From: Prorocentrum cordatum
Lineage: Eukaryota > Sar > Dinophyceae > Prorocentrales > Prorocentraceae
DNA: 64,000 nucleotides
Assembly: GCA_963575745.1 (NCBI GenBank)
Contig: CAUYUJ010013836.1
Coordinates: forward strand, 1-64,000
Reading direction: 5' to 3'
Shown: in pieces, positions 2,031 through 27,430 of the stretch
Layout of the letters: every line of letters starts with the position of its first letter
Position numbering within the stretch: position 1 is the first letter of the stretch
Translations under genes and position numbers: made by a program
Notes under the pieces: generated by a model
Told to the model about the DNA's origin: nothing
Database searches by the model: none
What the model saw: the letters and a program-made list of their open reading frames with translations, nothing else

Positions 2031-3867
2031 ATGGACCAACACATCGAGGATGTGCCGATGCCGTTGGCGATCGGGGGTTTGGTTGCAGGCGGCCCTCCAG
2101 ATGCAGACGGCGATGATCACATTGCCGTGCCGCCGCCTCTGGCGCTTCCAGCGCCAGCGCCCCCTGCCCGCCTCGATCTCAAGAGAAGGACGCCCGAGCT
2201 CATGAGCCACGCTCGTTCCAAGAAGATGTTGTTGTGCGCCCAGAGCCGCGAGTCGAAGCTCCGCCAAGACTTTGAACAGCTCAAAGGGGACATGCACACG
2301 GCTTGTACGTTGATCCCTGCATGCGCCCAATTGTTCGGGCGGCCCGTGAAACGCGTCGGCAGGATCAAAAAGGACGACCTCCGACCAGCACGTTTCACCT
2401 TCTTGAGCAGGATTGTCTTTGCCAGACGCCTGGGCACGCTGAACATTGGCATCGACATTCGGCGGTTGGTGTGCGCCGCAGCCCGCGTGATCAAGGCCAG
2501 ACAGGATGATGGCGTGGAGCACGTCCTCCGCGGCGGTGAGAAGGCTTTGCAGCACCCAGGTGCCAGCAATCGGTTCGTCCACATGTCATATGCTCATTTG
2601 TGGGACGAGGTCAACTGCAAGTTCGCAGCATATCCGAAGATGGGGTGCCGCCGCAGGAAGACAACCACGAGCATTCAGACTATCTGCCAGCGAGGTTACG
2701 CCAGGCTGACCTTGGCCAACCACATCAACGACGAGAGCGCGATCAGCCGATCGTTCTGCGAGCAGATCCTTGTCAATCCGATGAAGGTGAGCGGCACTTC
2801 AGCCAATGCGATCCTACCCGCTGTGTTGAAGGCAATCCCGCGGCCATTCCAGTTCAACGCCGTGGAGAATATTGATCGGTTGTTGCGTTCGTTCTCGTCC
2901 TTCACGATGTCTCTGACTGGTGACAAGGCGTCTGGGAACATCCTCTTGATGAAACAATTCTGTCACCAATGGGAAACGATGGTGCTTCCGCGCAGCAGTG
3001 GTCGGCTTCTTGTGTTCCCAGAGACGTGTGGCGTGCACTTAGAACATCGCACAAAATTGCAAGTTGTACCGCTCAAGCACCACACAATGCGCCTCTTCAG
3101 CTTAGCCAACTTGCTTCGCCTTGACGGTGTGCGGACCAGCATATGCGAGTCGATCGAAGTGCTGGTGCAGAAGATGCTCAAGCGACGGGTCCTCGGCCCG
3201 CCGCCAGACGGCATTGCCTGCCCGCTGTCCAAGTGCATCAATGTTCTCTTCCGCCCAGATGCGGACCACCACAAGCGCGCCAACGGCAAGGTGTCTCGCA
3301 GGGTGCAGGACCTGGGTGAATTGATGAGAATGGTCACCGGGGATCTCCACGGAGATTGGGTGCATTATTGCTGGGACGAGTCAACTGGCAGGCCGCGTTG
3401 CAGGGACGCCGACACTTGCTACGACAGAACAGTTCGTTCGGTCACGAATGCGCTGTATGGCGGCGGGGACCCTATTCCAGCAGAAAGCAGATGGACGCAC
3501 ACCTTGGTCAATATGAAACAGTTGCTGCTGAGGCGAATCGTGTACAATATCGGCGTGAAGGCGTTCCCGTGTTCGATCAGAAAACCTGGCGCCGCCAGCG
3601 AGATGCCGCAATCCGCCGACGGCGAGGCATGTCAATCGCACGTCGCTGAGGTGAATGCGTCGCAGCTGTCACGGGTGGGCGTGTATTTTGATGACCCCAA
3701 GACTTTTCCAGAGCTGGCCTTGCTCACGGTTTCCGTGGACATCATCGACAGGCGTTTGTTGTACCCACTTTTGGGCGACCCATGGCCCGCGGATGACGAC
3801 ACCCGCAGCAAGTTCGAGTGTCTCCTGGACCCAGATGATATGATTGCCTGCGGCTGCTCCCGCCACC
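2031..3867 (+). CDS. Exon 1 of a multi-copy dinoflagellate protein of unknown function
   Basis: It opens at the first ATG after the spliced-leader relic and runs 612 codons plus one base. It begins with an acidic, Pro/Ala-rich tail (residues 1-55), a basic segment (RSKK) and then a well-ordered mixed alpha/beta sequence rich in Cys and His (for example DTCYDRT near residue 465). I know similar sequences as a large unnamed family in dinoflagellates. No catalytic motif is evident, so I give no function. It probably ends at 3867, where CCGCCACC is followed by GTGCC. Joining to 5030 keeps the frame, since exons 1 and 2 together make exactly 1,009 codons. The frame stays open to 3971, but the sequence past 3867 is intron repeat. 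Confidence 0.72.
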
Positions 3868-4053
3868 GTGCCAGCCCAGCCGCGTCGGTGGTTTTTGCGC
3901 TAGGGGGCGCGTGCGTTTTACAAGTGACGCGTTTGGTTTTTCAAACTACGATAATACCTCTGCAGCCATGACGGCCACCACTGGTGATTGTTATGACGGC
4001 AGGGGTATTGCATGTGACGAAGACGGCGGGGATGATGATGATGATGATGATGC

Positions 4054-4091
<38 letters not shown>

Positions 4092-5029
4092 GCTTCTGCT
4101 GCTGCGAAAACGGTAACCGTGGCGATGACGACGGTGATTCTCCCGCGAGGGAGGCGCCGAAACAGTAGCACGTGACACTTAGTCACTTCGGCTGCTTCAG
4201 GAAAACGACGACGGTGACGACGACGGGGGGGAGAAAGGGGAGGAGGAGGAGGAGGAGGAGGAGGAGGAGGAGGAGGATGGGGAGGAGGAGGGGGAGGAAG
4301 AGGAGGAGGAGGGAGAGGAAGAAGCAACGAAGTAGACATTCGCCCGTTTCGCCCGAGACATTCTCTGACGCATGCGGCATTGAAATCTAAGGCCTGGCCA
4401 TCGGAACGTCGCACAGGGCGCGGGGGGGGCGGGGAGGGGAGGGGGGCGGCGGGGGGGGGGCAAGGAGAGAAGAGTTGTCATATGCGGCCCGTCCGTCTTT
4501 ACTTTTCCAGGGGCCGAAGTTATTATTAGGTGGTGTCTCAGGCGAAACACGTATGCAGCACTGGCGGTGTCAACGCACATTGGCGTTACAATAATGCCGC
4601 GTTCTTCTGCAATATTGGAGTTCATCTCGGGTCGGTTTGAAATAGACGCCTGAACACTGGCCTTTGGAACTGTTATTTGTTTCCACGGGCCTAGGCGACG
4701 CGGTCCCCGTGTTCGTCCGCCTCGAACGGCCGATTCGTCACACATGACGGCGCTGGCGCCTGCCCCGCCCTCGGCGCCTCTCCCGCTCAGACGCGGCGGA
4801 GGTGCCGCGCGTGACGCTTCCGAGACGTGATGTCGAAATGTGCCATTGGTGTCACATGTGACAAGGCGTGTCCCCTCCCCCTACGCAACTTCCCGATGTG
4901 GCGGGGATGTCTCAGGCGATGCGCCCATTTCCAGGGGGGGCACGCGGGCGCGCGGAAGCGCGTGCAGAGGGGGGTAGAAGACTACCATTAACCGCACCAG
5001 ACAGCACGACATCGCGGCCCAAGTGCCAG
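3868..5029 (+). other. Intron 1 with inverted-repeat ends and internal repeats
   Basis: GT-AG intron, phase 1, inferred from frame and junction. The motif CCGCCACCGTGCC at 3860-3872 spans the donor, and a degenerate reverse complement (CAGCGGTGGCGG) spans the acceptor near 5027-5038. Inside are a GAT run (about 4030-4090), a GGA run (about 4235-4320), a G-tract (about 4418-4460) and repeats of the type GGGATGTCTCAGGCGA that recur in the intron at 26179-27430. Confidence 0.55.
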
Positions 5030-6219
5030 CGGTGGCGGATAGTTTGCTCGGCCACTGTTTGTCAGAGTTATTGCATGTACTTGAATCGTGGCTTCATGGC
5101 GGCGAGAGGGATCCGCTGGTTATCCTCGATGCAGTCCGGGCGCCGATGAGGGACCCTGGCTATGCGCGCTTCGCGCGTTCGTGCATCCTTCGCCTGGGTT
5201 CTGCGATCAGCCGAAGGTGGGATCTTCGGTACTCGAGCTGGCCGTACCCGCTCTTCACGCTTTGCAGCGCCCACTCATCGGAAGAGCAGCGCAGGGATGT
5301 TGCGCGGCGACTGCTCGATGCATCGCGCGAGGAGCTCGGCGTGTACGCGTACGGCGTGAAGCACCGCTTCAACACCGTGCCTCTGCTGATGAGTGAGGCG
5401 TGCAGGAAAACATTGCTGGCTGATTTTCGCACGTTCGGATTCTCCGCCGACATCATCGAGAGGCTCAACGCGGAGATTCAGGCTGGTCGAGTGCATCGTG
5501 CGCCAGGTCGCGTCTTCGGCGGGGCGTCCAGGGAGCAGCTGCTGCAGCAGGCGCTCGCCGTGCACAAGAAATGCGGTGGCGTCGACCCGTTGAGCATGAA
5601 GCGAGATGCAGCCCTGAAGTCGTCGGACCTTCGAGTGCAGGTGCAGCCACTCATTGCCGCTGCTCGGCTTGAGTTTCTTCCAATTGCAGGTGGGCCCGAT
5701 GGCGCTGCTGCGAGCGCCGCGGCGCCTGAGCCCGTGGCCGTCGACCGCCCCGTGGAGATCGTGCTGGCGAACGCCTCCATCCTGCCGGGCGCGAGGGCGG
5801 TGGGGGCTGGCGGGGCCGATGGCGGCGGCGGGCCACCTGGCGACGGCGACGGCGGCGGACCTCTGCCACCCCGTCGGCGCGGATTGAGCCCGTACATGCT
5901 GGAATTGAACAAGACGTTGGCGAGTCTGAAGAGGGCGAAGGGCTCCGCCTTGACGCCCGAGGAGCTGAGCACGGCTCGCAGCAGGTTCAGGGAACAGTGG
6001 CAGCTCATGAATCATGACGCTCACCACGAGGCCTTCGAGGATTGGCAGAACACGCCTGCAGAGATGGTGCCCGCTGATGCCCAGGCGCCCGCGCATGCCA
6101 CTTCCTGGGGTCGAGGTTGCCGCTCGTCCCCGATCTCCTGCGAGGAGTTCTACGAGTGGCATCAATTGCACGGTTGGCCGACCAAGGACATGCGGGTGTA
6201 CAATTTTGCAAACTTCACG
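5030..6219 (+). CDS. Exon 2 of the unknown multi-copy protein
   Basis: About 397 codons. No ATG precedes the coding sequence, and the frame is closed upstream by a stop at 4975, so this must be an internal exon. The acceptor CCAG at 5026-5029 restores the frame of exon 1. The protein is largely helical and rich in Trp, Tyr and Arg in the first 130 residues. A Gly/Ala/Pro-rich linker (about residues 205-285) follows, then a conserved-looking tail with the segment HGWPTKDMRVY. The exon is taken to end at 6219 before GTGGCA, phase 0. The frame continues into a GGA repeat with a stop at 6250, which reads as intron. Function unknown. Confidence 0.65.
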
Positions 6220-6392
6220 GTGGCATGGGAGGAGGAGGGAGAGGAGGAGTAGGAGGAGCACGTGGAGGAGTAGGAGGGGGGGGGGAGGGGGATCGAGGCT
6301 GGATGGGAGGGAGGAGGAGGAGGAGAAAGAGGAGAAGGAGGAAGAGTAAGAGAAGGATCAGCAGATCGCATTCGGATGCTTCCGCCTAGCAG
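6220..6392 (+). other. Intron 2, GGA-rich
   Basis: A 173-bp GT-AG intron (GTGGCA to TAGCAG), phase 0, almost wholly composed of GGA and GAG repeats. The boundaries are inferred from frame continuity between 6219 and 6393. Confidence 0.5.
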
Positions 6393-6695
6393 GAAGACTT
6401 CGAGTGCGATGCTGCCGACGACCTGGTCGTCCGCGCTGAGCCCATCCCTGACCTTCCAGACTTCAGCCTGTGGGGCTGCGGCAGGAACGCTCGGCCTGTT
6501 CCTCGGGCAACGGTGCCAAACGTTCAGCAGTTCCATTTGATAGAACATGGCATTCACAACCTCATGGCACGTTTAACGAGACCCGCCGCCGATGTCGGCG
6601 ACGTGATGATCATGGTGGAGGGCCACTCACTGGAGAACCCAGCCAGCCGAATGCGCTTCGTGGGTATCATTTCGGGCACGTTTTACAATCCGAAG
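6393..6695 (+). CDS. Exon 3 of the unknown multi-copy protein
   Basis: 101 codons in phase 0 at both ends. The acceptor is TAGCAG at 6387-6392 and the donor is AAG followed by GTGATG at 6696. The exon begins EDFECDAADDL and contains the strongly protein-like stretch DVMIMVEGHSLENP before ending in FYNPK. It is bounded by an in-frame stop just upstream and by minisatellite DNA downstream, so its limits are well set. It belongs to the same unknown family as exons 1 and 2. No enzyme motif is recognised. Confidence 0.7.
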
Positions 6696-7479
6696 GTGAT
6701 GCGTCCGCTAATATGTAACCGCCCTCCCTAAGCCCATCCAGAAACGACCACTGCCCATCCAGAAATCTGATGTGCCCGACGTCCGCTAGTGCATCCCCGT
6801 CAGCCCATCCACTAACGACCAATCCCATCCAGAGACGATATTGCCAATGCCCCAGCCCATCAGAAACGACATGAGACATGTACCCCTGTCAGCCCATCCA
6901 TGAACGACCGACATCCGAACGAGTTGCCTTGGCCACGGAATTCCACGGGGGGAGTCAAATTGTAATAAAAGGGGTTCTGAGCACGCTCTGAAGGCTCTCG
7001 AGGTGGCAGTCTGCGCGCCGTTTTTTTTTTTGGGGGGGGGCTATCGGGGGGCGCCGCCTGTGACGCCGTCTTGCGACCATCTTGGGTTCTTGGGACAGCA
7101 TAGCATCACAATATCACGGTCTTGGGATCCTCCTCATCTCCCTCCTCCTCCTCCTCCTCCTCCTCGCCCATCCTCGCCCATCCTCCTCATCCTCCTCCTC
7201 CGTCTCCTCCCCCTCCTCCTCTTCCCCCCCCCCCTCCTCCTCCTCCCCCCCCGCCCAAGAGCACCCTCGGGCTCTCACGGTAGACACCAGTCTCCATGAT
7301 GAATCATGCCGCCCCCTCTTGGTGACCACCCATGGCACACGGTTCGGGGAGCGGGGGGGCGAGATTGAAGCCAAGGCGCCGCCTAAGAAACCCTTTCCCT
7401 TCCTCCCCATCCTCCTTCTCCGCCTCATCCTCCTTAAGGGCGCCGTGCGCTGTTCTCCTAGGTTGCCCATCGACCCAAG
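6696..7479 (+). other. Intron 3 with CCCATCCAGAAACGA minisatellite and CTC tract
   Basis: A GT-AG intron of 784 bp, phase 0 (GTGATG to CCCAAG). From 6725 to 6915 it holds degenerate units of CCCATCCAGAAACGA, the family that recurs at 9265-9600. From about 7125 to 7255 it is a CTC/CCT tract. There is a short T/G run at about 7019-7038. It lacks the CCGCCACCGTGCC motif of its neighbours. Confidence 0.6.
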
Positions 7480-8490
7480 GTGTTTGATATCGCACCGAAC
7501 ACGTTCCAAGTGAGAGCGAATGCCCACAGCGACGTGCTACACACGCCGTGTCTTGTGGAGATCGATGTTCAGAACTGTAGGACCGCTGGTCGATTACGTT
7601 GTATTGGCTATGAATCTTCAGATCACTTTGTGCTGAAGTTGGTTCGGAGCCTGATCGACATGGATTTGTACTTAGTGGATTACGACGTGGATGTCGATGT
7701 TGATAACAGTCTGAAGTGGAGCAGGGTCTCAGCTGTGCACTTGCAGGGTGAGCTGTGGAGGGCGGGGATGGCGCGCCCGTTCGGGTACCAGAGCCCCAGC
7801 AGCCGTGGGCCTTCTGCGTCCGACCTGGGGAGGCTGAACACCAGCGACCCCTTCGAGACGCCTCCTGGGCGCGGTGTTGGGCGCGGCGCTGGGCGCGGCG
7901 CTGGGCGCGGCGGCCGCCGCGGAGGAGGCGCAGGCAGAGGCCGCGGCCACGGAGCCGTAGATGGCGAGGGTCTCGGCGGCGGCCCCGACGCCCACGGCGA
8001 CGTCGACGACGTTGACATGCCGCCGTTGGTCGACGACTTGCTACCAGCTGGCGCGGCGATTGGCGAGGAGATGGACATGCTGGAACACGAGGCCGAGGAT
8101 GCCGACCTCGACGGCATGGAGGAGCTGGGCGACACGTTCGGCTTGGAGGACGGCGTCATCGAGAGGCACCCTCCAGGACTGGTCGGCGAGGGCGGCGGGG
8201 ACTTGGACGAGCATGACGATGCTCGCGGTGCTGAGCTTCTTGGGGTACCAGCTGAAGTACCCGATGAGATCGCAGCTGGAGCGGCAGACGGCGCTGCTGA
8301 CGTCGGCCTGGAGCCTGAGCCTGGCGAGGCCGAGGAGCCGCCCGCGCCTGCGGCACCGCTCCCGCCGCCGCCGCCAGGGCCGCATGATCTCGTTGGCCCG
8401 ACGCCGAGTGGATACTTCCACATGGATGGTCGCCAGGTGTTGCGCATTTTGCGCGGTCATCCTGTCAACAGCGTGACAGTGAATTGCTAT
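7480..8490 (+). CDS. Exon 4 of the unknown multi-copy protein
   Basis: It starts at GTG TTT GAT directly after the acceptor CCCAAG, so exon 3 (FYNPK) joins to VFDIAPN in frame. The frame is closed upstream by a TAG at 7459. The first 90 residues are compact (with DLYLVDYDVDVDVDN). A Gly/Arg-rich run (GRGAGRGAGRG, residues about 128-155) follows, then a very acidic region and a Pro-rich stretch near residue 300, and finally GYFHMDGRQVLRILRGHP and VNCY. The frame stays open to 8604, but the last part is the repeat shared with 23123 onward, so the exon is ended near 8490. The exact donor is not resolved. Function unknown. Confidence 0.6.
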
Positions 8491-9068
8491 CATACTGGCC
8501 TTCGGCGCATCCCGCCACCGCGCCTGAGTTGTCGGTCGGGGGCATATGTCGGCAGTATGCCCCGCCCTCCGCTGCGCCTCGCCAGCGGAACAAGTGCCAC
8601 TTGAAACATCTCTGCAATATGCCTCAAGTGGTACCGAATACGTGTCACTTGGGACATGGCCGTTGCATGCCTCAAGTTGTACCGACCAAGTACCACTCGG
8701 AGCATGTCGCCAATATGCCTCAAGTGGTACCGAGCAACATACCACTTGAAGCATGTTGGCAATATGCCTCAAGTGGTACCGAGTAGGTAGCACTTGAAGC
8801 ATGCCCGTTGTATGCCTCAAGTGGGACCGATGAAGTACCACTTGGGGCATGCCGTCAGTATGCTTCCAGTGGTACCGATCACGTACCACTTGATGCATAG
8901 TGACGCGCCTGCACGCGGGTGGACCAGAGATATTTTACAAGTTGGGCGCTGGTCCCCTGGATGATTCCTCGGGGTTGAAGCCTGAAATTCAAGGGATGCG
9001 GCAGAAAGCCCGACGGCACGCCCACTCCGTGCCTCGAGGCACGGTGGCGGGTATGCATGCTGGCTGCA
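8491..9068 (+). mobile_element. Introner-like intron 4
   Basis: It begins with ACTGGCCTTCGGCGCATCCC, which recurs almost exactly at 23122-23140 after another coding segment. It carries CCGCCACCGCGCC at 8512-8524, ends near GGCACGGTGGCGG at 9038-9050, and has a 48-bp dyad array between them. The right end (about 8960-9050) also matches 24325-24404. No standard GT donor is obvious, so the 5' splice site may be non-canonical. Treating it as a mobile intron is inference. Confidence 0.5.
8591..8897. repeat. 48-bp dyad-symmetric tandem array, copy 1
   Basis: About six and a half units spaced 48-49 bases apart. Each carries TACCACTTGARGCAT and, about nine bases later, its reverse complement ATGCCTCAAGTGGTA, so each unit can fold into a hairpin of about 15 bp. 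The same array occurs at 23200-23570. Confidence 0.85.
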
Positions 9069-9260
9069 GGCTGTGCATCGGCGAGAGTCGGTGCCCATCG
9101 GACGAGGTCTTGAAGACCTGGCTGTTCGAGGTGCCAGCAGCAGCCCCTGGCGCGTCCGCCGCGGAGCGGCGAGAGCTCATGCAGCGGCACGCGCAGCTGG
9201 CCAAGGACAGGTGGTACGTGAACAAGAAGGCCAAAGCCAAAGCGGCACCTGCGCCTCCTG
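9069..9260 (+). CDS. Exon 5 of the unknown multi-copy protein
   Basis: A short exon of about 64 codons, reading LCIGESRCPSDEVLKTWLFE, then a charged helix (AAERRELMQRHAQLAKDRW) and a Lys/Ala tail (KKAKAKAAP). It is placed after GGCTGCAG and before GTGAAAAC at 9261. The upstream junction is not fully resolved. A Cys-containing start followed by a basic tail fits the C-terminal part of the protein, but I see no stop codon, so a further exon is likely and was not found. Confidence 0.5.
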
Positions 9261-9264
9261 GTGA

Positions 9265-9600
9265 AAACATCAAAGAACCCCCATCAGGTCTTCCAGAAAC
9301 GGTGGCCCATCCAGAAACGATTCTCCGATGTCGCCAGCCGTCCAGCCTCGGAACTGCAGATATTGAACTGTCAGCCCAGCCGCTGGGACCCGAAGAACAG
9401 CGGTCGAGCCAGCTCATCCAGAGGCGATGCCAGCCCAGCCCATTCAGAGGCAATGCCAGTTGCCAACCTATCCAGAAACGATGCCAGCCAAGCCCATCCA
9501 GAAGCGATGCCAGCCTGCCCTGGCCCACCCCGAAGCGACATCACCAGCCCATCCAGAAACGGCGTTCATCTATCCAGGAACGATGCTCCATGGAGGGGTT
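9265..9600. repeat. Minisatellite with CCCATCCAGAAACGATGCC core
   Basis: Degenerate units of roughly 19-24 bases with the core GCCCATCCAGAAACGATGCC. It is the family found in intron 3 (6725-6915). It yields a spurious open frame continuing from exon 5. Confidence 0.8.
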
Positions 9601-9689
9601 AGTTTCCAGGAGCCAAGTGGGCGCACGCAGTGACAATGCGGGATTCGCAGTGCCACTCATGCTTCGGTGTGCGTCTCTGTTCGCACAAA

Positions 9690-9890
9690 TTGGGCTTGCA
9701 TGTTCTGAATGCGTATGTCCGCATGTATGCATGTTTGTGCATGTAGATACATGTAGCTATATGTCTGTATGTGTATGTGTGTATGTCTGTAGGTGATGCT
9801 GTTTGCATGTATGTGTGTGTGTATATGCATGTGCATGTAGATGTGTATGTGCGTGTAAGTGTGTTCATCTACGGTATGTTACGTTTAACG
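9690..9890. repeat. TG/ATG-rich microsatellite
   Basis: Imperfect TGTATG and TGTGTG repeats with no coding content. Confidence 0.75.
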
Positions 9891-9939
9891 TGTAACATTC
9901 GATCCACATGGCTTGCGGCAGCCCCTGTCACTGTGCCTG

Positions 9940-10160
9940 GGCGATGGGTCAGAGGCGTCGTGGGTGTTGGTTGGGAGCTCGTGGTTGGCCTCTGCAGGGC
10001 CCCTGCGAGGCAGACTCGAGGCATCTGGAAGCCTCTTGGAAACAGGTGCGGTGCCTCACGGGGCCTCTTTGGCGTCTCGCGGGCGCCTCTTTGGGGCATC
10101 TTGGGGCTCCTTGGTGGTCCTCGGGGCCTCTTGGAGGGCATTTGGTGGTATCTTGGGGCG
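9940..10160. repeat. GGCCTCTTGGGG repeat block
   Basis: Short degenerate repeats of GGCCTCTTGGGG and GCATCTTGGGGC. Related blocks are at 23585-24240 (same strand) and at 36170-36860 and 56040-56340 (reverse complement). Confidence 0.7.
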
Positions 10161-10844
10161 GGAGAGGGGGGTGGGCGATTGCGGCTCCCCACTCGGAGGC
10201 TAAAATCTTCGCGAGGTGCGTCGAACCATAGATCTCCCCAAACTCATGGGGGAAATGGCGCAGCACGGCTGAGGCCACGATCCTCGCGAGGGGTGTAGAC
10301 AATGGTAATCCCCTGGACCCCCCCCCCTCAGCCACGGCCCCCGCGGGGGGTGCCAAAAAGAGTGACCTCCGCGGTTCTCGAGGCGCGCGCGTGGGGAGGG
10401 AGGGGAGGGGGAAGTGGGTTCTGCCGCATGCCCTAAAACAAAATCCAATAACCTCACACAAGGAACTATGTAATGTTTAGAGGGTTGTGTGTCTATGTGT
10501 GTACGTGTCATGTGTAACAATGTTATGTGTCAGTGGTGGTGTCTCTATATGATCGTATGCGTCCACTCGTAACTGTCATGTTATGTTTCGGTTTGCACCG
10601 TTGTACCCAAGTATGTGTAGCAAACAGATGGTTGTTGTATTTAGCACCTGCATGTATATCATTATCCGTAGGTGTCGGTATGTATCTATAGTGTAGCCTG
10701 TGGTAACAAGTTTCATGTATCTGTTTAGATCCGACCGTCGTGTTACCTTAGTACCCCCAATGCGCCCACTCTAAAAACATCAATTTCGTTACCCACCTGC
10801 CCCTGCCCACCCGCCCATCCGCTCCCGCAACCTTTTGTCGCCAC
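10161..10844. other. No gene recognised
   Basis: Ordinary non-coding sequence. From about 10470 to 10760 it is AT/GT-rich with weak TGTATG repetition. No open frame of note and no RNA gene are seen. Confidence 0.5.
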
Positions 10845-11045
10845 TCGTCCGTCGTCCCGCGTGCTCGTTCGTTCGTCGTTCGTTCGTCGGTCATGCGTCG
10901 TTCAGCGTCGTCCGTCGGTCATTCGTCGCCCGTCGGTCGTCGCATGTCGTCGTCGATCGTCTTCGTCAATCGTCGTCGTCCGTCGTCGTTGTCGCCCGTC
11001 GTCGTCCGATCGCGTGTCCCGCGTTGGCGCCGACACGCCGTCGGC
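10845..11045. repeat. CGT-rich low-complexity tract
   Basis: Imperfect TCGTCG and CGTTCGTCG repeats. They open all three frames but encode nothing recognisable. Confidence 0.7.
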
Positions 11046-13822: not shown

Positions 13823-14690
13823 AAGTTTCATGAATCACGAGCCGCGCCCCCTTCAAGCACCTTCATCCCCAGAGGTTGCCACAACTTGATGTTTTCCGGA
13901 GACCGCGAGCACGCGCCGCCGAGCGACGTGGCCTCTCTCGCCGCCCAGCTTGGCGCTGCCCGAGGCGCAGCGGGCTTGCAGATGCGCTCGTAGTCCGTGG
14001 CGCACTTGCTCGCTGAGTTTGGGACTCTGTATCGTTGGCGCGACGCGAAGCCCCTGTTGGCGATCGCGTTCGGCCTGGAGAATCAGAACCACTTGGCGCC
14101 GAGACGAAACGTTGGTAGACGGTTTACGTTGCATGCAGACTGACTGTTCGTGTCGATTTGGCAGGGTAATTCGTCGCGCGGTCATCTGGGACATACGCGA
14201 GGGCGGGATGGAGCGGGTGGCGGTGGTGGAGGGGTGAAGAGTGGGTGGGTGGGTGGGTGGGTGAATTGAGAGGGGGGTAGGGTGAGGGGGCGGCGCGCCG
14301 TGGGGTTGGGCTGTGGTGGGGTGATGTGCGGGTGGGAGGGAGGGGGGAAAGGGGTGGCTGGGTGGGCGGGGTGGGGGTGGGGCGAGGCGGGAAGGGGCGG
14401 GGGGTGGTGAAGGGGGGGGGGCGTAGGGGTGCGGGGAAGGTGGAGGGGGGGGAGGGGGGCGGAGGGGTGGCGCGAGGTGAGAGGGGCCTGGCTGCGGAGC
14501 GAAGGTGGGCACGCGCGTCGGCGGGGGCGAAGTCGGTTCGCCGCTCGCCTGGGCGCTCGGCAGTTTGGATGGGGGAGCGAAGTTGCGAGTAGAAAGTGGA
14601 GGAGGGAGCGAAGTTGGCGGGGGCGAGCGAAACGGCGGAGCGAAGTCTGAAGCCCGAAGTTGGATGGTGGAGCGAAGCGGCAGCGCCAAC
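13823..14690. other. Intergenic, G-rich centre
   Basis: From about 14205 to 14480 the + strand is GGGTGGG-rich, a candidate for G-quadruplex formation. The sequence on either side shows only short frames. No gene is recognised. Confidence 0.5.
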
Positions 14691-14696
14691 GCAACT

Positions 14697-15172
14697 TCGC
14701 GCGAACGCAACTCGCCAACTCAACTCGTCAACGCAACTCACCAACTCAACTCATCAACGCAACTCACCAACTCAACTCACCAACGCAACTCACCAACTCA
14801 ACTCGCCAACTCAACTCGCCAACGCAACTCGCCAACTCAACTCGCCAACGCAACTCACCAACTCAACTCGCCAACGCAACTCGCCAACGCAACTCGCGCG
14901 GGTGCACTAAAGGATTTCTATTGGGAAGGCCATCCAGGCCACCGCGAACTCAACTCGCCAACTCAACTCGCCAACGCAACTCGCCAACTCAACTCGCCAA
15001 CTCAACTCGCCAACGCAACTCGCCAACTCAACTCGCCAACGCAACTCACCAACGCAACTCCCCAACGCAACTCGCCAACGCAACTCGCCAACGCAACTCG
15101 CCAACTCAACTCGCCAACGCAACTCGCCAACGCAACTCACCAACGCAACTTTGCGGACCAACTCGCGAACGC
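14697..15172. repeat. CAACTCGCCAACG minisatellite
   Basis: Units of about 10 bases alternate between CAACTCGC and CAACGCAACTC for about 475 bases. They are interrupted once at about 14905-14945 by unrelated sequence. A short inverted relic lies at 29705-29758. Confidence 0.9.
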
Positions 15173-15360
15173 AACTTCGGTCTGGCGCTGCCGAGCGAAA
15201 TGGCTCCTTCACTTCGCCCCCTCTGAGGTGGCCCCCGCCCTCGCTCCGCGGCCGCGCCCCCCCCTCTCCCCCCTCCATCCACCTCCCCCAATTCCTGAGG
15301 CGCCCTTGAGCACCCCCTCTCACCGCCCTCCTCCCCTCCGCAACCCTCTGAGGTACCCAT

Positions 15361-16160: not shown

Positions 16161-16825
16161 TCGCCATTGTTTGGAAACGAGAGTTCGCCTGTGCGGGCGG
16201 CCCAAAACTACGCGATCGGCCTTCGTTGGTAACGTCGCACGCGTAGCAATTTACCGTCGCCCCCCGCCGCCGTTGTCCCCGCCGTCTGCCATTTCGCACG
16301 GGGTCCGTAACGTTTTACCGCATCGAGCGAGTTGTTTTTCAAAACTGTGTTCCGTTCTCCCCAGCAATATAGCCACGTACCGAAGCATCGTCAATCATCA
16401 TCATCATCCACCGTCCCGGAGCGTTGGTCGGCGCGTCGGCACCATCATCTTTACCAGGGCAGTGGTGTGCGTTTACTGTATGTCGATATCGCATTGGTGT
16501 CTTAGTGTCCCAGACTCATCGAGTCGTCCCTTCTTGCGCGGGGTCGGGCCTCTTACCATATCGTCTCAGAGTTTTCTGCGTTTCCGTGACGATTCCTCGT
16601 AGCCGCCCGTTGCTCCCCGTGAAGTCCCATTGCCGCCCCCCCTTGCGGTCTGCTATGGTTCCCAAGATACCCGTATTATTCGCATTATGTTTATTCGTTC
16701 CCGCATGCTTCCCCATGGTAGTTGTCCCCATGTTGGCTTCACCGTGCGATTAATTAGGCTTTACTGTCGTATGTTTGGTATAGTAGTAACAGTATAGTAG
16801 AAATAACAGTAGTAGAAGAAACAAC

Positions 16826-18885: not shown

Positions 18886-19071
18886 GGCCCGTGCGACCAA
18901 ACCGAGCTAGGTTTAATGATGTACAGGGTGGTCTGGCAACGAAGTACCTGGTACCCTAATGGTTTCGCAACTGATCTCCCAACTCGTAGCCCATGTTTAC
19001 GGCTTAGATTTGGGCGCGTTGTGTCAGTTATTCGGCATTGCATTGTCCATCTAGCTTGCCTAAACTCGCGC

Positions 19072-19893
19072 ATGGCATCTTCTTCGATGGGCTTTGAGCT
19101 TGTTGGGAGCCTTCAGCTCGTGGCCACTCTTCCAGACCAGCCCGTTGGATTCGAGAAGCGCATCGACATCGAGATTCCAGCAACGCTATTACTTGTCGGA
19201 GGAAAGGTTGATGAGCCAGAACACGTTCCTATGGAAGTGCCCTCTGCAATCGTGGAATCGGGCTGGACTGGGAGAGTCGACAACAGCGTCGAGAGCAGTT
19301 CGAGGTATTCGGAACTCGTGACTGCAGGCCGCCTTGACCCTGCTGGGCCTGACGTCCCGACCCTTCCTCAAGTAAGACCGTTGCGATTCGATGTGAATCT
19401 GTGTTTTTCTCGTCCCGTTGCGAAGGAGCCTGAGTATCGTCCCGAGCCTGCCCAGCGGCTGCGTGAGGAGTGTGCTAAGACTGATAGCGAACGATCTGAT
19501 TCGCCGCGGCGGCCCTGTCAGAACCTGAGTGACGATGTCGTGCAGGTAGAGGGCAGCCCTGTCAAGGAGACGCGTGAAGGCTTCAGATTCCTCACAATTC
19601 CTCCTTCGTGTTCGGCTGAACGGCTTGAGACACCGATCAAGTTTTCGAGCTCAGGTGCGGCCCCGTCGAAGGAAGGGTGCAGCGACATGATTTTGGCTCG
19701 GTTTGCGGACGGTGGCGATCTGCCGTGCGATCCGAAGAGCCCGTCGCCTTTGCCTTTGCCTAAGAAGCGCCGCTGGACATTGCTCGGGAATGCGCCCGAG
19801 GCGAATCAGCAGCAAGAGTCTTCCGAATGCCCCTTCAGAATGGTCGGCCATCAGCTAAGGGGCGCGGCGTCTCTGCTCGCGGAGTTTAGTTAG
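19072..19893 (+). CDS. Unrecognised protein-coding segment
   Basis: 273 codons from the ATG at 19072 (MASSSMGFELVG) to a TAG at 19891. An upstream ATG in the same frame at 18916 is possible but adds sequence next to the minisatellite that does not look like protein. The segment is moderately acidic with a Pro/Ser-rich second half, and a short basic motif PKKRRW near residue 230 is a candidate nuclear localisation signal. I know no family. It could be a complete small gene or the first exon of the gene whose later exons begin at 21995. Confidence 0.45.
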   Translation: MASSSMGFELVGSLQLVATLPDQPVGFEKRIDIEIPATLLLVGGKVDEPEHVPMEVPSAIVESGWTGRVDNSVESSSRYSELVTAGRLDPAGPDVPTLPQVRPLRFDVNLCFSRPVAKEPEYRPEPAQRLREECAKTDSERSDSPRRPCQNLSDDVVQVEGSPVKETREGFRFLTIPPSCSAERLETPIKFSSSGAAPSKEGCSDMILARFADGGDLPCDPKSPSPLPLPKKRRWTLLGNAPEANQQQESSECPFRMVGHQLRGAASLLAEFS

Positions 19894-20204
19894 CAACTCA
19901 GCTGCATGCTGGGTACCAGCGTCGCCTGCTTTTTTTTCTGCGGCATGGGGAGGTGGGAAGGCGGCGGACGATGAGCATCGCGAGCACGATCGTCGTATAT
20001 AGCATTTAACGATTAGGGTCAGGGGTGGGACGATGGCAGGACGCGTGCCCACGTTCCAGTTCCGAGCTTCTCGCCATTGCCGCTGCTGGCACAGCAGTCG
20101 TTTGCGGCCAATTAGATTGGGTGGGCTGTTTGGGGATCGTTCAGCGTTCAGCGCAGGCTCGGTTGAGCACGTGATTGTCTTCCTCCTCCTCCTCCTCCTC
20201 CTAC

Positions 20205-20980
20205 CTGCCTGTGATCCGCCGCAGAACGAACACCCCCAAAGATCAACCAAACGAGCGCCTCCAAAAACCCGCCACACCGAGCGCCCCCCCCCCCCCCACG
20301 GATCCGCCACCCGCCGCGGAACGAGCACCCCCAGAGATCCACGAAAACAAACACCCCCAAAGATCAGCCAACACGAGCACCCCAACCATATCAGCCAAAC
20401 CGAGCGCGCTACCGAACGCGCACCCCCAGCCATCCACCATCAAGAGCACCACCAACGACCCGCCAAAACGAGCACCCCCAAGGGTCCGCCACCCCCCACG
20501 GAAAGAGCACCCTCAACGACCCGCCACTACAAACACCATCAACGGCCAACCACAACGAGCACCACCACACATCCTCCAAACCGAGCACCTCCCAGATATC
20601 AGCCATCCGCCACGGAACGAGGACCTCAAAGATCAGCCAAAACAAACACCCCCATCGACCCGCCAAAACGAGCACCCCCAGGGACCCGCCAAAACGAGCA
20701 CCCCCACGTATCAGCTAAAACGAGCACTCTCAAGGATCAGACATCCGCCGCGGAACGAGCACCTCCAACGATCTGCCAAGCCAAGCACCCCCAAAGATCC
20801 GCCAACACGAGCACCCCCAACGATCACCCAACACGAACACTCCCAAAGCCCTGCCAAACCGATCACCCCCAAGGATCCGCCATCCGCCGCGTAACGAACA
20901 CCCCCAACGATCAGCCAAAACAAACACACCCGAAGATCCGCCACCACAAGCACCCCCCCAAAGATCAGCCAAACCGACAC
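20205..20980. repeat. Minisatellite with AACGAGCACCCCCAAAGATC core
   Basis: About 30 degenerate units of about 24-26 bases with the core AACGAGCACCCCCAAAGATC and a GCCAAA spacer. It gives open frames on both strands with no protein character. Confidence 0.85.
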
Positions 20981-21087
20981 CCCACGGCGCGCGCGGTGGG
21001 GGGCGGGGGGGGGCCTAGAAAATATGTAAAAGCCATCACAGAAGGAAACAGAAAACAGTCTAACTTCTAACACGCCCCAACGTGCGA

Positions 21088-21100
21088 GGCACGGTGGCGG
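21088..21100 (+). repeat. Copy of the GGCACGGTGGCGG intron-end motif
   Basis: Same context (CACGCC-N-CGTGC-GAGGCACGGTGGCGGATG) as at 9020-9052 and 24373-24406. By analogy it marks the 3' end of an intron preceding the coding segment at 21995. A partner motif upstream was not found. Confidence 0.5.
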
Positions 21101-21151
21101 ATGTTATTCATATCATTCTCAAAGGTCTTTGCCAATATGCCGTCGCCCTGA

Positions 21152-21283
21152 GCGGCCGCCTATTAGCAACGAAACGTGCCGTGCCAAGCTCGCTCTCATC
21201 ATCTTCGCGCGGCGGCGACGGTGGGCGCCCCCGCGGTGGGGGCGAGCCTGGCACAGCACGTGTTGTTGCTAATAGGTCGCCGC
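21152..21283. repeat. 42-bp inverted repeat
   Basis: Arms at 21152-21193 and 21242-21283 are reverse complements with about six mismatches in 42 bases. The 48-base loop is itself C/G-rich. CTATTAGCAAC and GTTGCTAATAG are the clearest parts. It could be a MITE-like insertion or a structured RNA. Confidence 0.75.
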
Positions 21284-21639
21284 AACTCGGCGCGGTTGTT
21301 GTTAACCCTCTGGGTGCCTTGTTCGGGCCAGCTTGACGCCTGCTTGGTTTTCCCTCGGAGCTCACTAAGGGCTCTTTCGAAGATGGCCTAAAGGTGCCTC
21401 CCTCCCGAGGAGGAGAGAACCCGCCCCACGGATGCCTGAGCAGGATGCAGGTGATCTTAGCCACACAGTCACATGTTTGAGCCAGAATGGCAAGTTCAAG
21501 CGTGACCGTGTTGGTGGCGAAGGCTCCCTCTTCGGGTCTATCACCATCACCGTCACCAGTGCCATAATCATGCGCATTACCAACGCCATAACACAATGCA
21601 CGCCATCACTGCACTTAAACCGGAGTTTGCCTGAGTCGC

Positions 21640-21805
21640 GCTGTATTGGATTGTGCTGTACTGTGTGGGGTCCATGCGCTACTGTTTGGGGTCGATGGTC
21701 TATGTTGCTACGGTTTGGGGTCCACGCTATATTTGTTTGGGGTCCATGATGCTACTGTTTGGGGTCCAAGCTGCATATGTTTGGGTTGACGTCGCTAAAG
21801 CTTGG
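21640..21805. repeat. CTGTTTGGGGTC minisatellite, second block
   Basis: Units with TACTGTTTGGGGTCCATG. Same family as 18530-18885. Confidence 0.75.
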
Positions 21806-21994
21806 GGCTAATGATGATGAGTCGGATGGCAATGGCGATGAGAGTCGAATGAGTATGTAATAGCTGGGGGTCCAAGAGCGAGAGCCGACGTTCTCAGCGT
21901 TGATGGAAGTCCAACTGATGCAATCGAGGCTCGAGAAGTTCTTGCATAGTGACGCTTGACCGAGCGTTGTCCGCCAATTGTAGTTCTGCTCGGC

Positions 21995-23122
21995 ATGTGC
22001 GATGACAAAACGGAGAGCCAGTCAGCGATTGGCGGTTTCGGCGTGGAGGATGCATTATGGTTGAATGAGGCCGATGCTGGTTCCTCGGTGGCAGAGCAGG
22101 TTGAGATGAAGAGTGAGCCGCCCACGCCGATGCCTTGCAAGTCAGCCGTGCATCTGTCGGATGTGATTCCACCCAGGACGCCCGCGGCGTCCCCGCCTCC
22201 CAGCGCTTGCAAGCGCCCGAAGGCCGAGAAGAGGCAGTCGCCGTCTGCTTCTTCGAGGGGTGACGCATGCGCCGTAGCGGACGCGGTGCAGCCCCAGCGG
22301 CAAGGACGGCTCAGCAGGAAAGCTGCAATCGACCTCCAGGAGGCGTTGGAGTCAGGCATCTCGATCGCACGCCCGCGGGACACCGACGACAGCGTGATCC
22401 AGCGGGAGCAGGCCCTCGGCGGTGTCGATGATGATGGCTCGACAATTCACAGGTGGTCCATCGATGCGAAGTTGCCGAGCGGCGTCGTGTGTGGTGGTTT
22501 GAGTCGGATACGGGGCACGCTCAATGACGTCCATTGCGTTCGACTGGCCACGATGGAGTGGTTCGACGCCTACATCCCAAGCACCATGCAATCTCTCATG
22601 CGCCGCCTCACGGACTACGAGGGCGACTGCGTCGGCGGGGTCGACCTCGAGTTGGAGATTGCCTACAAGCAGCTCGCCAGTCGCGCTGCCGCACTCATTC
22701 TGTTGCATAAGGGCCTGAAAGCTTACCTCGATACCCGCAAGTCGTCCGGGTTAGTTGCCACCCTGAAGCCATTCAACGTCATCAGGGCGTTCCTCAAGGC
22801 TATAGATCGGGACCTGGCCCCCGACCTGTCCGCCGTGCACGCCCACGCTGTCTTTGTCCAGACCTTCATCGATGGCAATAGCATTGTTGATGCACTTGCG
22901 ACGTTGGACGCCAAGGATCTCGCGATCTCCCACGGGAAGATCCAGGAGTACTGGAAGACACTTGCGGGTGCCGACGATGATGAGAAAGGTGCCAACGCAA
23001 AGGGCGAACAGCGCAGCTCAGACGAAGGCGACGACACAGGTACGAAGAGGAGGAAACGGAGGAAGGCGACGGCGAAGAAGGCGTCACAGAAGCAGGGGGC
23101 TCACGTCATGTTCGATATCTGA
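21995..23122 (+). CDS. Unrecognised protein-coding segment with basic C terminus
   Basis: 375 codons from the first in-frame ATG (MCDDKTESQS) to the TGA at 23120. The frame is open upstream only to 21953, so this can be a true start or an internal exon. It has a Ser/Pro-rich first third with KRPKAEKR, then a mostly helical domain (about residues 120-325), and ends in TKRRKRRKATAKK, a strong nuclear localisation candidate. The TGA lies at the point where the repeated intron element (ACTGGCCTTCGG) begins, so the real end could be a splice site just before it. No family is recognised. Confidence 0.55.
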   Translation: MCDDKTESQSAIGGFGVEDALWLNEADAGSSVAEQVEMKSEPPTPMPCKSAVHLSDVIPPRTPAASPPPSACKRPKAEKRQSPSASSRGDACAVADAVQPQRQGRLSRKAAIDLQEALESGISIARPRDTDDSVIQREQALGGVDDDGSTIHRWSIDAKLPSGVVCGGLSRIRGTLNDVHCVRLATMEWFDAYIPSTMQSLMRRLTDYEGDCVGGVDLELEIAYKQLASRAAALILLHKGLKAYLDTRKSSGLVATLKPFNVIRAFLKAIDRDLAPDLSAVHAHAVFVQTFIDGNSIVDALATLDAKDLAISHGKIQEYWKTLAGADDDEKGANAKGEQRSSDEGDDTGTKRRKRRKATAKKASQKQGAHVMFDI

Positions 23123-23199
23123 CTGGCCTTCGGCACATCCCGCCACCGTGCTTGGGTGGTCGGTCTGGGGCTGATGCCGTCTGTATGCCCAAGGGGTGC

Positions 23200-23570
23200 C
23201 GAACAAGTACCACTCGAGGCATGTCGGGGGTACGCCTCAAATGGTATCGAACAACTCTCACTTGAGGCATGCCGCATGCCCGCTGTGTGCATGCACGTGA
23301 GGCCTGTCGGGCGCATGCCTCAAATGGTACCAAGCAGATACCACTTGAGGCATGTCGGCAGTATGCATGAAGCGGCACCGAACGCGTACCACTTGAGACA
23401 TGCCCGTTGTATGCGCCAAGCGGTACCACTCACGTACCACTGTAGGCATGCCGTCGGTATGCCTCAAATGGTACCCAACAAATTCCAATTGAAGCATGGC
23501 GGCGGTATGCTGTCTCGGTACCACTTGAAGCATGCCACATGTCCGTTGTATGCCTCATGTGGTACGTGTG
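23200..23570. repeat. 48-bp dyad-symmetric tandem array, copy 2
   Basis: About eight units, mostly 48 bases apart, with CCACTTGAGGCATG and its inverse. It is more degenerate than the array at 8591-8897. Confidence 0.8.
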
Positions 23571-23584
23571 CCTGGGGGAGGGCC

Positions 23585-24240
23585 AGAGACCGCATGGACG
23601 TTAGTTGGGATCTCGTGGCTGGCCTCTCGGGGGGCCTCTGGTAGGCAAGTGTGGGGCCTCTTGGGGGTCATGTTGGAGCGTCTTGGGACATCTGTTAGGC
23701 CTCTTGCTTGGGGCGTCCCCAAGGCCGTTCGGAAGCCTCCTGGGGCCTCCTTGGGGCCCCTTGGGGCCTCCTGGAAGGCGTCTTGGGGCGGAAAGCTAAG
23801 GTTTCCAGTTGCTGGTCACACTCCGAGACCCTCATTCCGCCTGTCTTGGGGGCCCCTTGGGTCGTCCTGGGCGGCTCTTGGACCGTCTTGGTCCTTGGTG
23901 CCCTTTGGGGCCGTCGTGGGGGCGCCTTGGGGGCATCGTGGGCCGCCGTGTAACGATCTTGGGGGGCTCTTGGGCCGTCTTGGAGCGTCGGAAAGCCGAA
24001 ACGGCGATGAGGGAACCAACGTAGAAGAAACCAATGAAAATCAACGACTGGTGCCTGTTGGGCCCTTGTGGGCGGCATCTTGGGTCTTGGAGGCCTCTTC
24101 GGCAGTCGTGGGACCATGTTGGGCGTCTTGGGGCGATATGTCGGCGACTCGGGGGCGTCTTGGACAATCCTCGGAAACCTCTCGGGGCCCTCTTGGCCAA
24201 TCTCGGGGCCCTCTTGGGTCGGAACAAGTCGCGCGAGAAG
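23585..24240. repeat. GGCCTCTTGGGG repeat block
   Basis: Degenerate repetition of GGGCCTCTTGG and CGTCTTGGGGC over about 650 bases. Related to 9940-10160. Its onset (GGGATCTCGTGGCTGGCCTC) also parallels 9975-10000. Confidence 0.8.
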
Positions 24241-24404
24241 CTGCGCCAAGCCCCAGGGGGGGCGCGCCAGCACGCGGTGAGCCCCGAGAGATGCTGCAAT
24301 TTGGGCTCTGGCCCAGGCCCCCTTGGGGCTGGGGACTGAGGCTCAAGGGATGGGGCAAAGTACTTGGGGACACGCCCACTCCATGCCTCGAGGCACGGTG
24401 GCGG

Positions 24405-24890
24405 ATGTTTCCCGAGCTGCTCAAGCCGCCGCCCGTCCACGTATTCAAGACCTTGTCCGAATGCTTCAAGCAGGTCTTCTACAGGATCCCCGCGAAGGCG
24501 ATTGCTGGGCCAACTGTTTGCGTCTGGGTCGGGGCGGCCTCGTCGGGCTGTGTTCTCTCGGCTCGCGCGTGGGGCGGGGGCCTCCCGAGGGGCCCAATAG
24601 GGGGGGGGCGCAGGCAGGAGACGACGCAGGTGGAGGTGGAGGAGGGAGTAGACCCAAGTCGGGCACAGGGAGTTTAACGATATGCTTAGGAGAAGTCGCC
24701 AGTCTAAGCACCCCTGGTAAAAATGCGAACGTGGGCCTCATGAGGGTCTGTCCCTCATCGAGCGTCGGGCGCTGGCTGACGCGTTCGGATCAGGAGGTCC
24801 AGGGGCTGGTGGCTCATGGGCTTCAGGCCCGTCGGATTCTGTCTACTCGTGGGTCATGGGCGATGTTGTCTGGCTTTGGGTTCTGGTTTG
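24405..24890 (+). other. Possible short exon, then intron
   Basis: Directly after the element the frame reading MFPELLKPPPVHVFKTLSEC looks protein-like for about 45 codons (24406-24540) and could be a small exon. The rest, to the acceptor CTTCAG at 24898-24903, has no coding character. Confidence 0.25.
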
Positions 24891-24903
24891 AACATTGCTT
24901 CAG

Positions 24904-26178
24904 GGTCGTCCAATGGTGTCTGACCTGGTAGTTGACGCGTCTGATTTGTCTGAACTGATCTTGGGTCATTGGCTTCAGGCCGAGGTCAGTCCCCGACAAT
25001 ATGTTCTCCCTTGCCCTTGCGAGGCGATGAAGGATGCGAAGTCTGTGGATGTGTTAATCAAGGAGATCGCGGCTGTGAGCGCCAAATGGGACGACGTGAT
25101 GTGCGGGCAGACCGGCGCCCAGACTTTCTCCAACATGCTTCGCAGTTGTTCGGTGATTTGGCAGAGCGCCTCCCGCGATTATAGGAAGAAGCCAGAGGTT
25201 GCAAAAGTTCGGCTGGCGCGCCGAGACATCATCGCGGCGGCGCGCTCGGACGCTCCTCCGTTGTCGGACTTCGCCAGGGCCATGGCGGGCCTTCCCGAGA
25301 CAGGGTGCGAGGTGACGAGGTTGGCGATGGGCTGCGCTAAAGAGCTAGCGCAGGCGGGCATCGAGGATGAGATCGTGGAGCAGAAGTTCAGCGCGTCGGA
25401 GGAGTACTTCATCAAGTGCATGGGCCCCGCTATCGAGGATGGTGCGGCTTGGCTGATGAATGGCATCGAAGGCAGACGCGTGGACATGACTACCATGCGA
25501 AGGACGACTGCGCACGTGCAGTCGTACGTATCTGACCTCTTGGATTGCTCGACGAGGTGGTCGTCTGGTGCGTTGCGGGAGCACCTCCAAGATATGATGG
25601 ACGGCTGCGAGAATTCTCTTCGAGTGTCGTGCTGGGCCAACTTCGTCATGGTGGCTGATGCTCGCGACGTTCTGGTAGACAAGCTGAGGTCGATCACAGA
25701 TGCCAATGAGCCGAGTTCCGAGGGCAAGCAGGCCACTGCCGAGGAGTCTGGAGGCGGCGACGTCATTGTGAAGGGAGAGCCCGTCGAGGAGGGCAACGTA
25801 CCAGTCGTGTCTGGAGCTCCTGTCGCCCGCCACTTGCCTGCCGTGGCGCTTGCCGACATCAAGACGTTGTCGGAAAGAGTGGGCGAGTTCGGGACCGCGG
25901 CGATGGTAGTCGTTGATTGCGTTCAGAAGTGGATCGAAGTGTTGATCAAGAAGATTGGCGAGGATATCATCACGGCTGAGCTGCAATCCTTCTCAGTGCC
26001 ATTGCCGCGCGAGGCGTCGGCGCAGCTGCAGCAGAACATCAAGGTTCTCCTTGATATGGCAAGCTACCTCATCGCCTGGGCGCAGGTCTGCGAGAGCGAC
26101 TGCATGTCCCCTTCAGCCAGGTTCGAGCAGCTGACGCCCGATAGCAAGTATCCATTGCCTGCGGCAAGCCCCGCCACC
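24904..26178 (+). CDS. Internal exon of an unrecognised gene
   Basis: 425 codons, phase 0 at both ends. The frame is closed upstream by TGA at 24889 and the acceptor is CTTCAG at 24903. The donor is ACC followed by GTGCCTG at 26179, inside the CCGCCACCGTGCC motif. The protein is almost wholly helical, with an acidic Glu/Ser insert near residues 265-300. It includes KWDDVMCGQTGAQTF and KKIGEDIITAELQSF. No catalytic motif or known fold is recognised. The frame runs on to 26349 through a GAT repeat, which I treat as intron. Confidence 0.6.
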
Positions 26179-27430
26179 GTGCCTGTACAGCTGCCTGCGC
26201 GAGGAAGCACTGGTGTCCGCTGCCAGTGTTCCAACTTGAGACGCGTTGCGTCTCCAAACTTGATGGTGGCGGTAATGATGGTGGTGGCGGTGATGCTGAA
26301 GATGACGATGATGATGATGATGATGATGATAATGATGATGATGCAATGATGATGGTGGTGATGATGATGATGATGATCATCATCATCATGATGACGATGG
26401 CAGGAGTGTCACATGCGACGAAGACGGTAAGGATGATTGCGGTGATCATTAAATAAACGATGGCGGTCCGTGACGGTAATGATGATGATACGGTATGGTG
26501 GTGATCTCCAGCGGGGCAAGCGCCGAAACTGTCATGCGTGACGCCTCGGCCGTTACGGGAGAACGGAGACGGCGATGATGATGAGAAAGAGTAATATGAG
26601 ACCCGTCGCATGTGACACGTTCCGTCTTCACTTCTCGGAAGCGTCGCGCGTGGCCCGTCTGCCGTTTCTGAGCGGACGAAGCCATCAAAGATGATGTTGG
26701 CGATGGACTCGCTCGACATCGGTCCCGAAACCGTCTTGCGTGACATCTCGGCCGTTTCGGGGCGGACGAAGACGGCGTTGGTGATGAGGGGTAGAGGGGG
26801 AGGGGAAACTGGGGAGAAAAAAAACACATGCGGCACATGCGGCATGCGGCACCTTCCGTCTTCACGTCCCGAAGACCCCGATGCAAGTTTGAGGGGATGT
26901 CTCGAGCGAGCCGCTCCGTTGCAAACAAAACTGATGGAACCAAATCAAATGGTATTTGAAATTTGAAGCATGTCGTAATGTTCTGCCGCGTTTGATGTCA
27001 TCATATGGCGCTTTGAACGGCGTCTTAGGTCCTAGACGCATCACTTTACACGTCCCACGTTTCGAGGATGTCTCATGCGAAACTGCGCCTTTTAAAGTTT
27101 CGAGGGTTAGAGTTGGGTCCTCGATTTCAACGTCACCGTTGCCCGAGGATGTATCAGGCGCAACGCGCAACTTTAGCATGATGCATCTGAGGATACGGCC
27201 CCATAGCGTGTGATCGTTGCGGGGATGTCTCCGACGACATTGTCGATCTTCGGGAGGAAGGCTCTCAAACGGGCCGAGACCCGTCTGCCGAGCCTTACCC
27301 CTCCTCAAGAGACCCGTGTAGGGAAAGCAGGTCAGGGCCTTACCCGTGCCCAGTACGTGGCAGTCCTTCACGCCTCAACGTGCCAGGTGGCACGGCGGCG
27401 GGTCTGATGGGTTTGGTCTCGTTTGCAAAG
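26179..27430 (+). other. Intron with inverted-repeat motifs
   Basis: GT-AG intron (GTGCCT to GCAAAG), phase 0, joining SPAT to VHVRHAN. CCGCCACCGTGCC lies at 26171-26183 and GGCACGGCGGCGG at 27389-27401. It contains a GAT run (26280-26400) and repeats of the form CGAAACNGTCNTGCGTGAC followed by GGCCGTTTCGGG, and GAGGATGTCTCATGCGAAAC. These also occur in degenerate form in the intron at 3868-5029. Confidence 0.55.

Follow-up and report, generated by a model that had tools for sequence, protein, structure and literature searches.

What interrupts the coding sequence of two genes in the dinoflagellate Prorocentrum cordatum, and by what kind of event could the interruptions have arisen? The window analysed here is the whole stretch of 64,000 nucleotides taken from contig CAUYUJ010013836.1 (assembly GCA_963575745.1, positions 1 to 64,000, forward strand), with about 60% G+C, in which two genes, called here gene I and gene II, each contain two gaps bounded by the two halves of an inverted repeat. 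We put at roughly 0.6 the probability that these gaps (e1 and e2 in gene I, e4 and e5 in gene II) are one family of non-autonomous mobile elements inserted in the coding sequence of the two genes and presumably removed as introns. Elements of this kind, introners, are known and have already been reported and counted in P. cordatum. A lone 3' end of the same type, e3, lies between the genes.

Ends and kinship of the elements

A sequence-only reading of the window had placed a 13-base motif at the 5' side of four gaps and its reverse complement at the 3' side of the same gaps. The 5' copies are where it put them, those at 3860 and 26171 being exact and those at 8512 and 23140 having one mismatch. 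On the 3' side, the copies at 9038, 21088 and 24392 are exact and that at 27389 has one mismatch; the copy announced near 5027, at the end of e1, is weak, since it is absent from the 86 matches to the motif at up to 3 mismatches and has only CGGTGGCGG in common with it. The copy at 21088 (e3) had been described as an orphan, and no + strand 5' partner with 3 or fewer mismatches follows position 16405.

At one mismatch or fewer, the window holds four copies of the motif per strand, eight in all, which make three correctly oriented pairs at a spacing of 300-1500 bases, while 200 dinucleotide shuffles gave no pair (mean copies 0.175 and 0.1). When 1331 other complex 13-mers from the window were used as control words, eight made one pair and none made two. 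Lone inverted 12-mer pairs are common in the window (20 complex exact ones, 200-2500 apart), and what counts is therefore that a single word recurs. The paired motif is real and beyond chance. A relaxed-pattern search of the window for more copies gave none that was convincing, and the exact 3'-end and 5'-end patterns had no match in viral contigs.

The ends have an order that goes beyond the motif. With a bar marking the boundary, all four 5' ends read TA|TC (TA|TG in e1), then a mini-hairpin, GCCTKCGGC, and then CCGCCACCG; the hairpin, which the sequence-only reading had not mentioned, begins exactly 14 bases upstream of the 5' repeat in every copy. GCCTKCGGC occurs five times on the + strand of the window and four times on the - strand, and a hairpin GCCNNNGGC within 22 bases upstream accompanies 4/4 of the repeats versus 7/218 of the other CCGCC sites. 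The sequence GYGGCGGR|T (pattern GGCACGGTGGCGGR) stands at each of the five 3' ends, and before or overlapping it lies a palindrome, intact in e2, e3 and e5, with a single mispair in e4 and in degraded form in e1. The inverted repeat is placed asymmetrically, 19-22 bases away from the 5' boundary and 1 base away from the 3' boundary. Between 40-base ends, exact inverted matches are at most 9 bases long in e1, 10 in e2, 12 in e4 and 7 in e5 (whose boundary is one base off), compared with 5 in a control intron and a random 99th percentile of 8; the rule of Dougan et al., considered below, uses 30 bases. A further sequence, GGCACGGCGGCGTAT at 57300-57314 (+), is one mismatch from the 3'-end pattern, with no palindrome seen beside it. 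The lone end e3 lies just downstream of a minisatellite-like stretch at about 20200-20980 (+).

To judge from the alignments, a single bounded element is present in two copies, e2 and e4, in genes without detectable similarity. Their 5' sides are 69.8% identical over 387 aligned positions, tandem repeats included, and their 3' sides 72.1% over 147; the similarity starts around TATC and halts at GGCGG, the 30-base outer flanks matching at only 7/30 and 6/30 positions, and the middle of e4 carries about 760 bases more than that of e2. In blastp, no match at E<=1 links gene I exons to gene II exons (eight exons, one short exon being read out of frame). e1 and e5 have only their ends in common with e2 and e4, the four comparison scores lying within or near the shuffle range. 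An internal stretch of 63 bases is common to e1 and e5 at 79%, inverted (4783-4845 against 26613-26675), and its score is 59.5, whereas none of 30 shuffles scored above 36. It is opposite in orientation despite the same-orientation ends.

Host genes and insertion sites

From 2058 onwards, gene I is matched by P0002, a P. cordatum protein of 683 residues, with 97% identity across 577 aligned positions; a second match lies at 5170-5571 (89.6% over 134, the first positions lying outside the true match). For gene II, P0001 gave the first stretch, and open frames together with codon-position GC gave the rest; the stretches appear to belong to one gene. Its GT-AG intron at 24520-24904, which is without inverted repeat ends, served as the control intron.

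The 656-residue protein P0003, a relative of gene I, bears most directly on e2. Its matches break off at Y588 (base 8490) and start again at H590 (the HAGC codons), and the joined gene I protein aligns to it ungapped over the e2 junction, where C-Y-x-H-x-x-C is kept. Because P0003 is continuous there, the whole e2 insert, both motif copies included, is foreign to the ancestral protein. Support for an empty site is weaker at e4: P0001, which matches the first gene II exon at 61%, reads HVMFETFP where the e4 join gives HVMFDMFP, and it ends three residues past the junction. No insert-free relative was found for e1 or e5, and the joined gene II query found no homologue, none across e5. Pfam searches of the eight exon stretches, P0002, P0003 and four other open reading frames gave nothing at E<=0.01, nor did Rfam and tRNA scans of the window give anything. 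The proposal that the gaps are introner-like is upheld in that one bounded element lies within the coding sequence of two genes with no detectable similarity and that a relative lacking e2 is continuous, the case for e4 being the weaker.

In 4/4 copies an A stands before the boundaries and a T after them, the targets being TA|T, and joining at A|T keeps the reading frame in e2, e4 and e5. A TA|T site without duplication would fit three of the four copies. No duplication longer than TA was found at the boundaries of any copy.

Removal, mode of transposition and likeness to known elements

Two of the gaps, 3868-5029 and 26179-27430, had been read as GT-AG introns with the donor inside the motif. 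Both are in frame, but frame alone lends these junctions no support, because many other in-frame pairs exist: the stretches scanned contain 43 in-frame GT/GC/GA-AG pairs for e1 and 28 for e5, the claimed junctions among them. When a motif-internal GT-AG donor was considered for all four gaps it was rejected: in-frame pairs of this type are available in e1 and e5, but at e4 an in-frame TGA precedes the motif and leaves no stop-free in-frame pair, and at e2 the motif is foreign to the protein by comparison with P0003.

Other pairs lie at similar offsets in three copies, namely GC-AG in e2 and GA-AG in e4 at -26/-12, and GC-AG in e5 at -27/-15, all in frame and each adding 9 bases. They agree with the published usage of P. 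cordatum, where donors are GC in 51.4%, GT in 24.7% and GA in 23.8% of cases and 79.7% of acceptors are AGG, in an annotation that permitted G[TCA] donors only (PMC10666404). A single rule for all copies, with a GNTAT donor and an AG in the 3' palindrome, was rejected: it is in frame in e2 and e4 and not in e1, and the donor of e5 lies one base further out. Since the difference in e2, e4 and e5 is nine bases, frame is no judge between canonical and precise removal, and the canonical route is the one that we would favour, on prior grounds. With a short linker connecting the ends, the mini-hairpin and the stem form in 4/4 copies. Full-length minimum-energy folds pair the repeats in e4 only (12/13 bases) and in none of e1, e2 and e5, so that a structural role of the repeats in splicing is not supported.

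These observations are consistent with the following course of events. The element would insert at A|T, causing little or no target-site duplication (TSD), by a rolling-circle transposition like that of Helitron2/Helentron, as the asymmetric repeats and terminal hairpins suggest. The spliceosome would then remove it, with the target providing the donor (e2 T|GCTATC, e4 C|GATATC, e5 A|GCAAGT) and the 3' palindrome of the element the acceptor, AG|G, and three codons would be added. A mode in which the donor is co-opted from the target and the acceptor is carried is described for introners, with added codons in Aureococcus (PMC9860276).

The origin first suggested for these elements, DNA transposons with terminal inverted repeats (TIRs), fares poorly, given the unequal depth of the repeat at the two ends and the want of any duplication beyond a TA in e1 and e2. 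In anatomy they would resemble Helitron2/Helentron elements more than a TIR transposon. Non-autonomous Helentrons (HINE/DINE-1) and Helitron2 likewise have 12-15 bp subterminal or asymmetric inverted repeats, end hairpins, central tandem repeats and no duplication, and, as far as these accounts go, are not known as introns (PMC4067079, PMC5148889, PMC4344730). Here a hairpin is present at the 3' end of e2, e3, e4 and e5, and the geometry matches best on the - strand, with the repeat near the 5' end and the hairpin between the repeat and the 3' end. The target rule is mixed, insertion at A|T being that of Helitron1 and asymmetric repeats that of Helitron2; for this reason, and because CTRR is lacking, we do not file the elements as Helitrons. 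Among the papers listed for introners and Helitrons together, and for dinoflagellate Helitrons and introns, none dealt with this, to judge from title or abstract. A 2025 study by Gozashti and colleagues reportedly derives introners from Helitrons among other transposons, and we therefore do not claim Helitron-derived introners as new.

The closest relatives may be the introners of P. cordatum itself, the same or a very close species, which have simple inverted repeats at both intron ends and GC, GA or GT donors (Dougan et al. 2023, PMC10666404). That genome has 59.7% G+C and introns enriched in introner elements, defined by inverted repeats of 8-20 nt and direct repeats of 3-5 nt lying no more than 30 bases from the intron ends; its main-text description is aggregate and picks out no family that shares the ends, hairpins or A|T sites described here (PMC10666404).

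Several observations weigh against a single family of this type. The sample is small, four copies and a lone 3' end from one window; the figure of 70% for e2 and e4 is partly due to tandem repeats, and e3 lies in no recognised coding gap. The shared donor and acceptor make no in-frame pair in e1, which falls outside the pattern of target donor and palindrome acceptor, and has an A|T join that is one base off and out of frame; its join at a GATA repeat is in frame, as a TA-targeting cut-and-paste event would give. TA stands on both sides in e1 and e2 (2/4). At e2, canonical removal would disrupt the conserved C-Y-x-H. With regard to the likeness to Helitrons, the + strand starts with TC in e2, e4 and e5 and with TG in e1, and no CTRR was found among the ends, which are CGGR on the + strand (5/5) and ATGA, CAGA, TGGA and ATCA on the - strand. 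The A|T targets are also unlike the T-rich or TT targets that Helitron2/Helentrons prefer (PMC5148889).

Alternative explanations and significance

The elements might instead be introners from a cut-and-paste TIR transposon, that is, miniature inverted-repeat transposable elements whose TSDs have decayed or were only TA. Such an origin, which we consider doubtful, would account for the inverted repeats on both sides, for the TA duplicated in e1 and e2 and for the frame of the GATA join in e1, and it has precedents in the introners of Symbiodinium (4 bp TSDs and TIRs) and Acanthoeca (TIRs without TSDs) (PMC9860276). In Symbiodinium microadriaticum, too, dispersed copies form introns, there with TSDs of 4 bp and here with none or TA (Gozashti et al. 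2022, PMC9860276). Against it, e4 and e5 are without any duplication and the words common to the 20-base flanks are no longer than chance (3-5 bases, random mean 4.1), the repeats are asymmetric, and TA duplication was rejected as a general rule, as taking out one TA would break the frame of e2 and e4.

Precise excision at non-canonical junctions (about TC...GR), helped by RNA pairing, is improbable in our estimation. It agrees with P0003 at e2, where C-Y-x-H-x-x-C would be kept, it is in frame in e2, e4 and e5, and the linker-joined ends fold in all four copies; the restriction of the published annotation to G[TCA] donors also speaks for it. The introners of Amoebophrya (PMC7789003) and the nonconventional introns of euglenids (PMC4770533) likewise have inverted repeats at their ends and a proposed transposon-like origin; however, non-canonical junctions are demonstrated by RNA there and are hypothetical here. 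The Amoebophrya repeats carry 3-5 nt direct repeats (PMC7789003), while the repeats studied here pair in one of the four full-length folds. Canonical pairs exist, moreover, and P0003 represents the ancestral state and is no evidence on splicing.

We give equally little credit to the idea that the intervals are nested in ordinary introns of greater length, or are not themselves the spliced units. It is what the annotated P0002 model implies for e1: the model joins VDIIDR to WDLRYSS, which in the window makes a GC-AG intron at 3752-5216 that holds e1 together with 266 bases of flank. The stretches so skipped are open, however, and their codon-position GC (0.64/0.39/0.71 on the 5' side; 0.64/0.50/0.64 on the 3' side, which is less clearly coding) is unlike that of the e1 interior (0.58/0.61/0.59); at e2, the relative P0003 reaches the element on both sides. 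Least credible of all would be rolling-circle, Helitron2-like dinoflagellate introners removed precisely at non-canonical TC...GR junctions, a combination whose odds are reduced by the full-length folds.

Apart from the putative introner family, whose coordinates are collected in Table 1, the window holds a candidate DIRS-like retroelement, picked out by eye at about 43950-50530 (+), with stretches resembling reverse transcriptase, RNase H and a tyrosine recombinase and with SVLANGHGIEGPNGVFTMLPCIPLYIRSS repeated near both ends; Pfam gave nothing at E<=0.01 in this region, only DNA_pol_viral_C at 0.068. Another candidate inverted-repeat element lies at 37904-39669 (two arms of 162 nt that are 78% complementary and stand 1442 apart), and a tandem array with a 13-base period at 14609-15242 (+).

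Table 1. Genes, putative elements and their parts in the window.
Feature	Positions	Strand	Remarks
Gene I	2058..9262	+	coding 2058-3840, about 5041-6237, 7474-8489, 9052-9262; from P0002 and P0003 (tblastn) and codon-position GC
Gene II	21953..28867	+	coding to 23117, 24406-24519, 24905-26150, 27403-28867
Element e1	3841..5039	+	boundaries inferred; between gene I exons; 5' hairpin and repeat like the others, 3' repeat degraded
Element e2	8490..9051	+	within gene I codons for C-Y-x-H-x-x-C; relative P0003 continuous; homologous to e4
Element e4	23118..24405	+	in gene II; in-frame stop TGA 23120-23122; homologous to e2 at both ends
Element e5	26151..27402	+	in gene II; same ends as the others; in frame when joined at A|T
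e3, lone 3' end (palindrome and repeat)	21081..21101	+	exact 13-mer; 3' end GTGGCGGA|T shared
e1 5' mini-hairpin GCCTGCGGC	3846..3854	+	
e2 5' mini-hairpin GCCTTCGGC	8498..8506	+	
e4 5' mini-hairpin GCCTTCGGC	23126..23134	+	
e5 5' mini-hairpin GCCTGCGGC	26157..26165	+	
e1 5' inverted repeat	3860..3872	+	exact
e2 5' inverted repeat	8512..8524	+	1 mismatch
e4 5' inverted repeat	23140..23152	+	1 mismatch
e5 5' inverted repeat	26171..26183	+	exact
e1 degraded 3' inverted repeat	5030..5038	+	CGGTGGCGG only
e2 3' palindrome and inverted repeat	9028..9050	+	CGTGCC-TCGA-GGCACG (9028-9043) overlapping the repeat (9038-9050)
e4 3' palindrome and inverted repeat	24382..24404	+	one mispair; overlapping the repeat (24392-24404)
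e5 3' palindrome and inverted repeat	27379..27401	+	CGTGCC-AGGT-GGCACG overlapping the repeat (27389-27401, 1 mismatch)
e2 48-base tandem repeat	8618..8892	+	5.7 copies, 76% matches
e4 48-base tandem repeat	23294..23510	+	4.5 copies, 69% matches

For the annotation of P. cordatum there is a possible problem, in that the intron predicted around e1 would drop about 89 probable codons; and if rolling-circle introners were removed precisely at TC...GR junctions, pipelines restricted to G[TCA]-AG would model such genes wrongly, which may be what happened in P0002 at e1. Introners are known to bring about sudden gains of introns. With defined ends, a TA|T target and an ancestral empty site, the putative family would make the transposition chemistry of dinoflagellate intron gain testable in one species, and the same family would allow a test of how a fresh insert acquires its splice sites.

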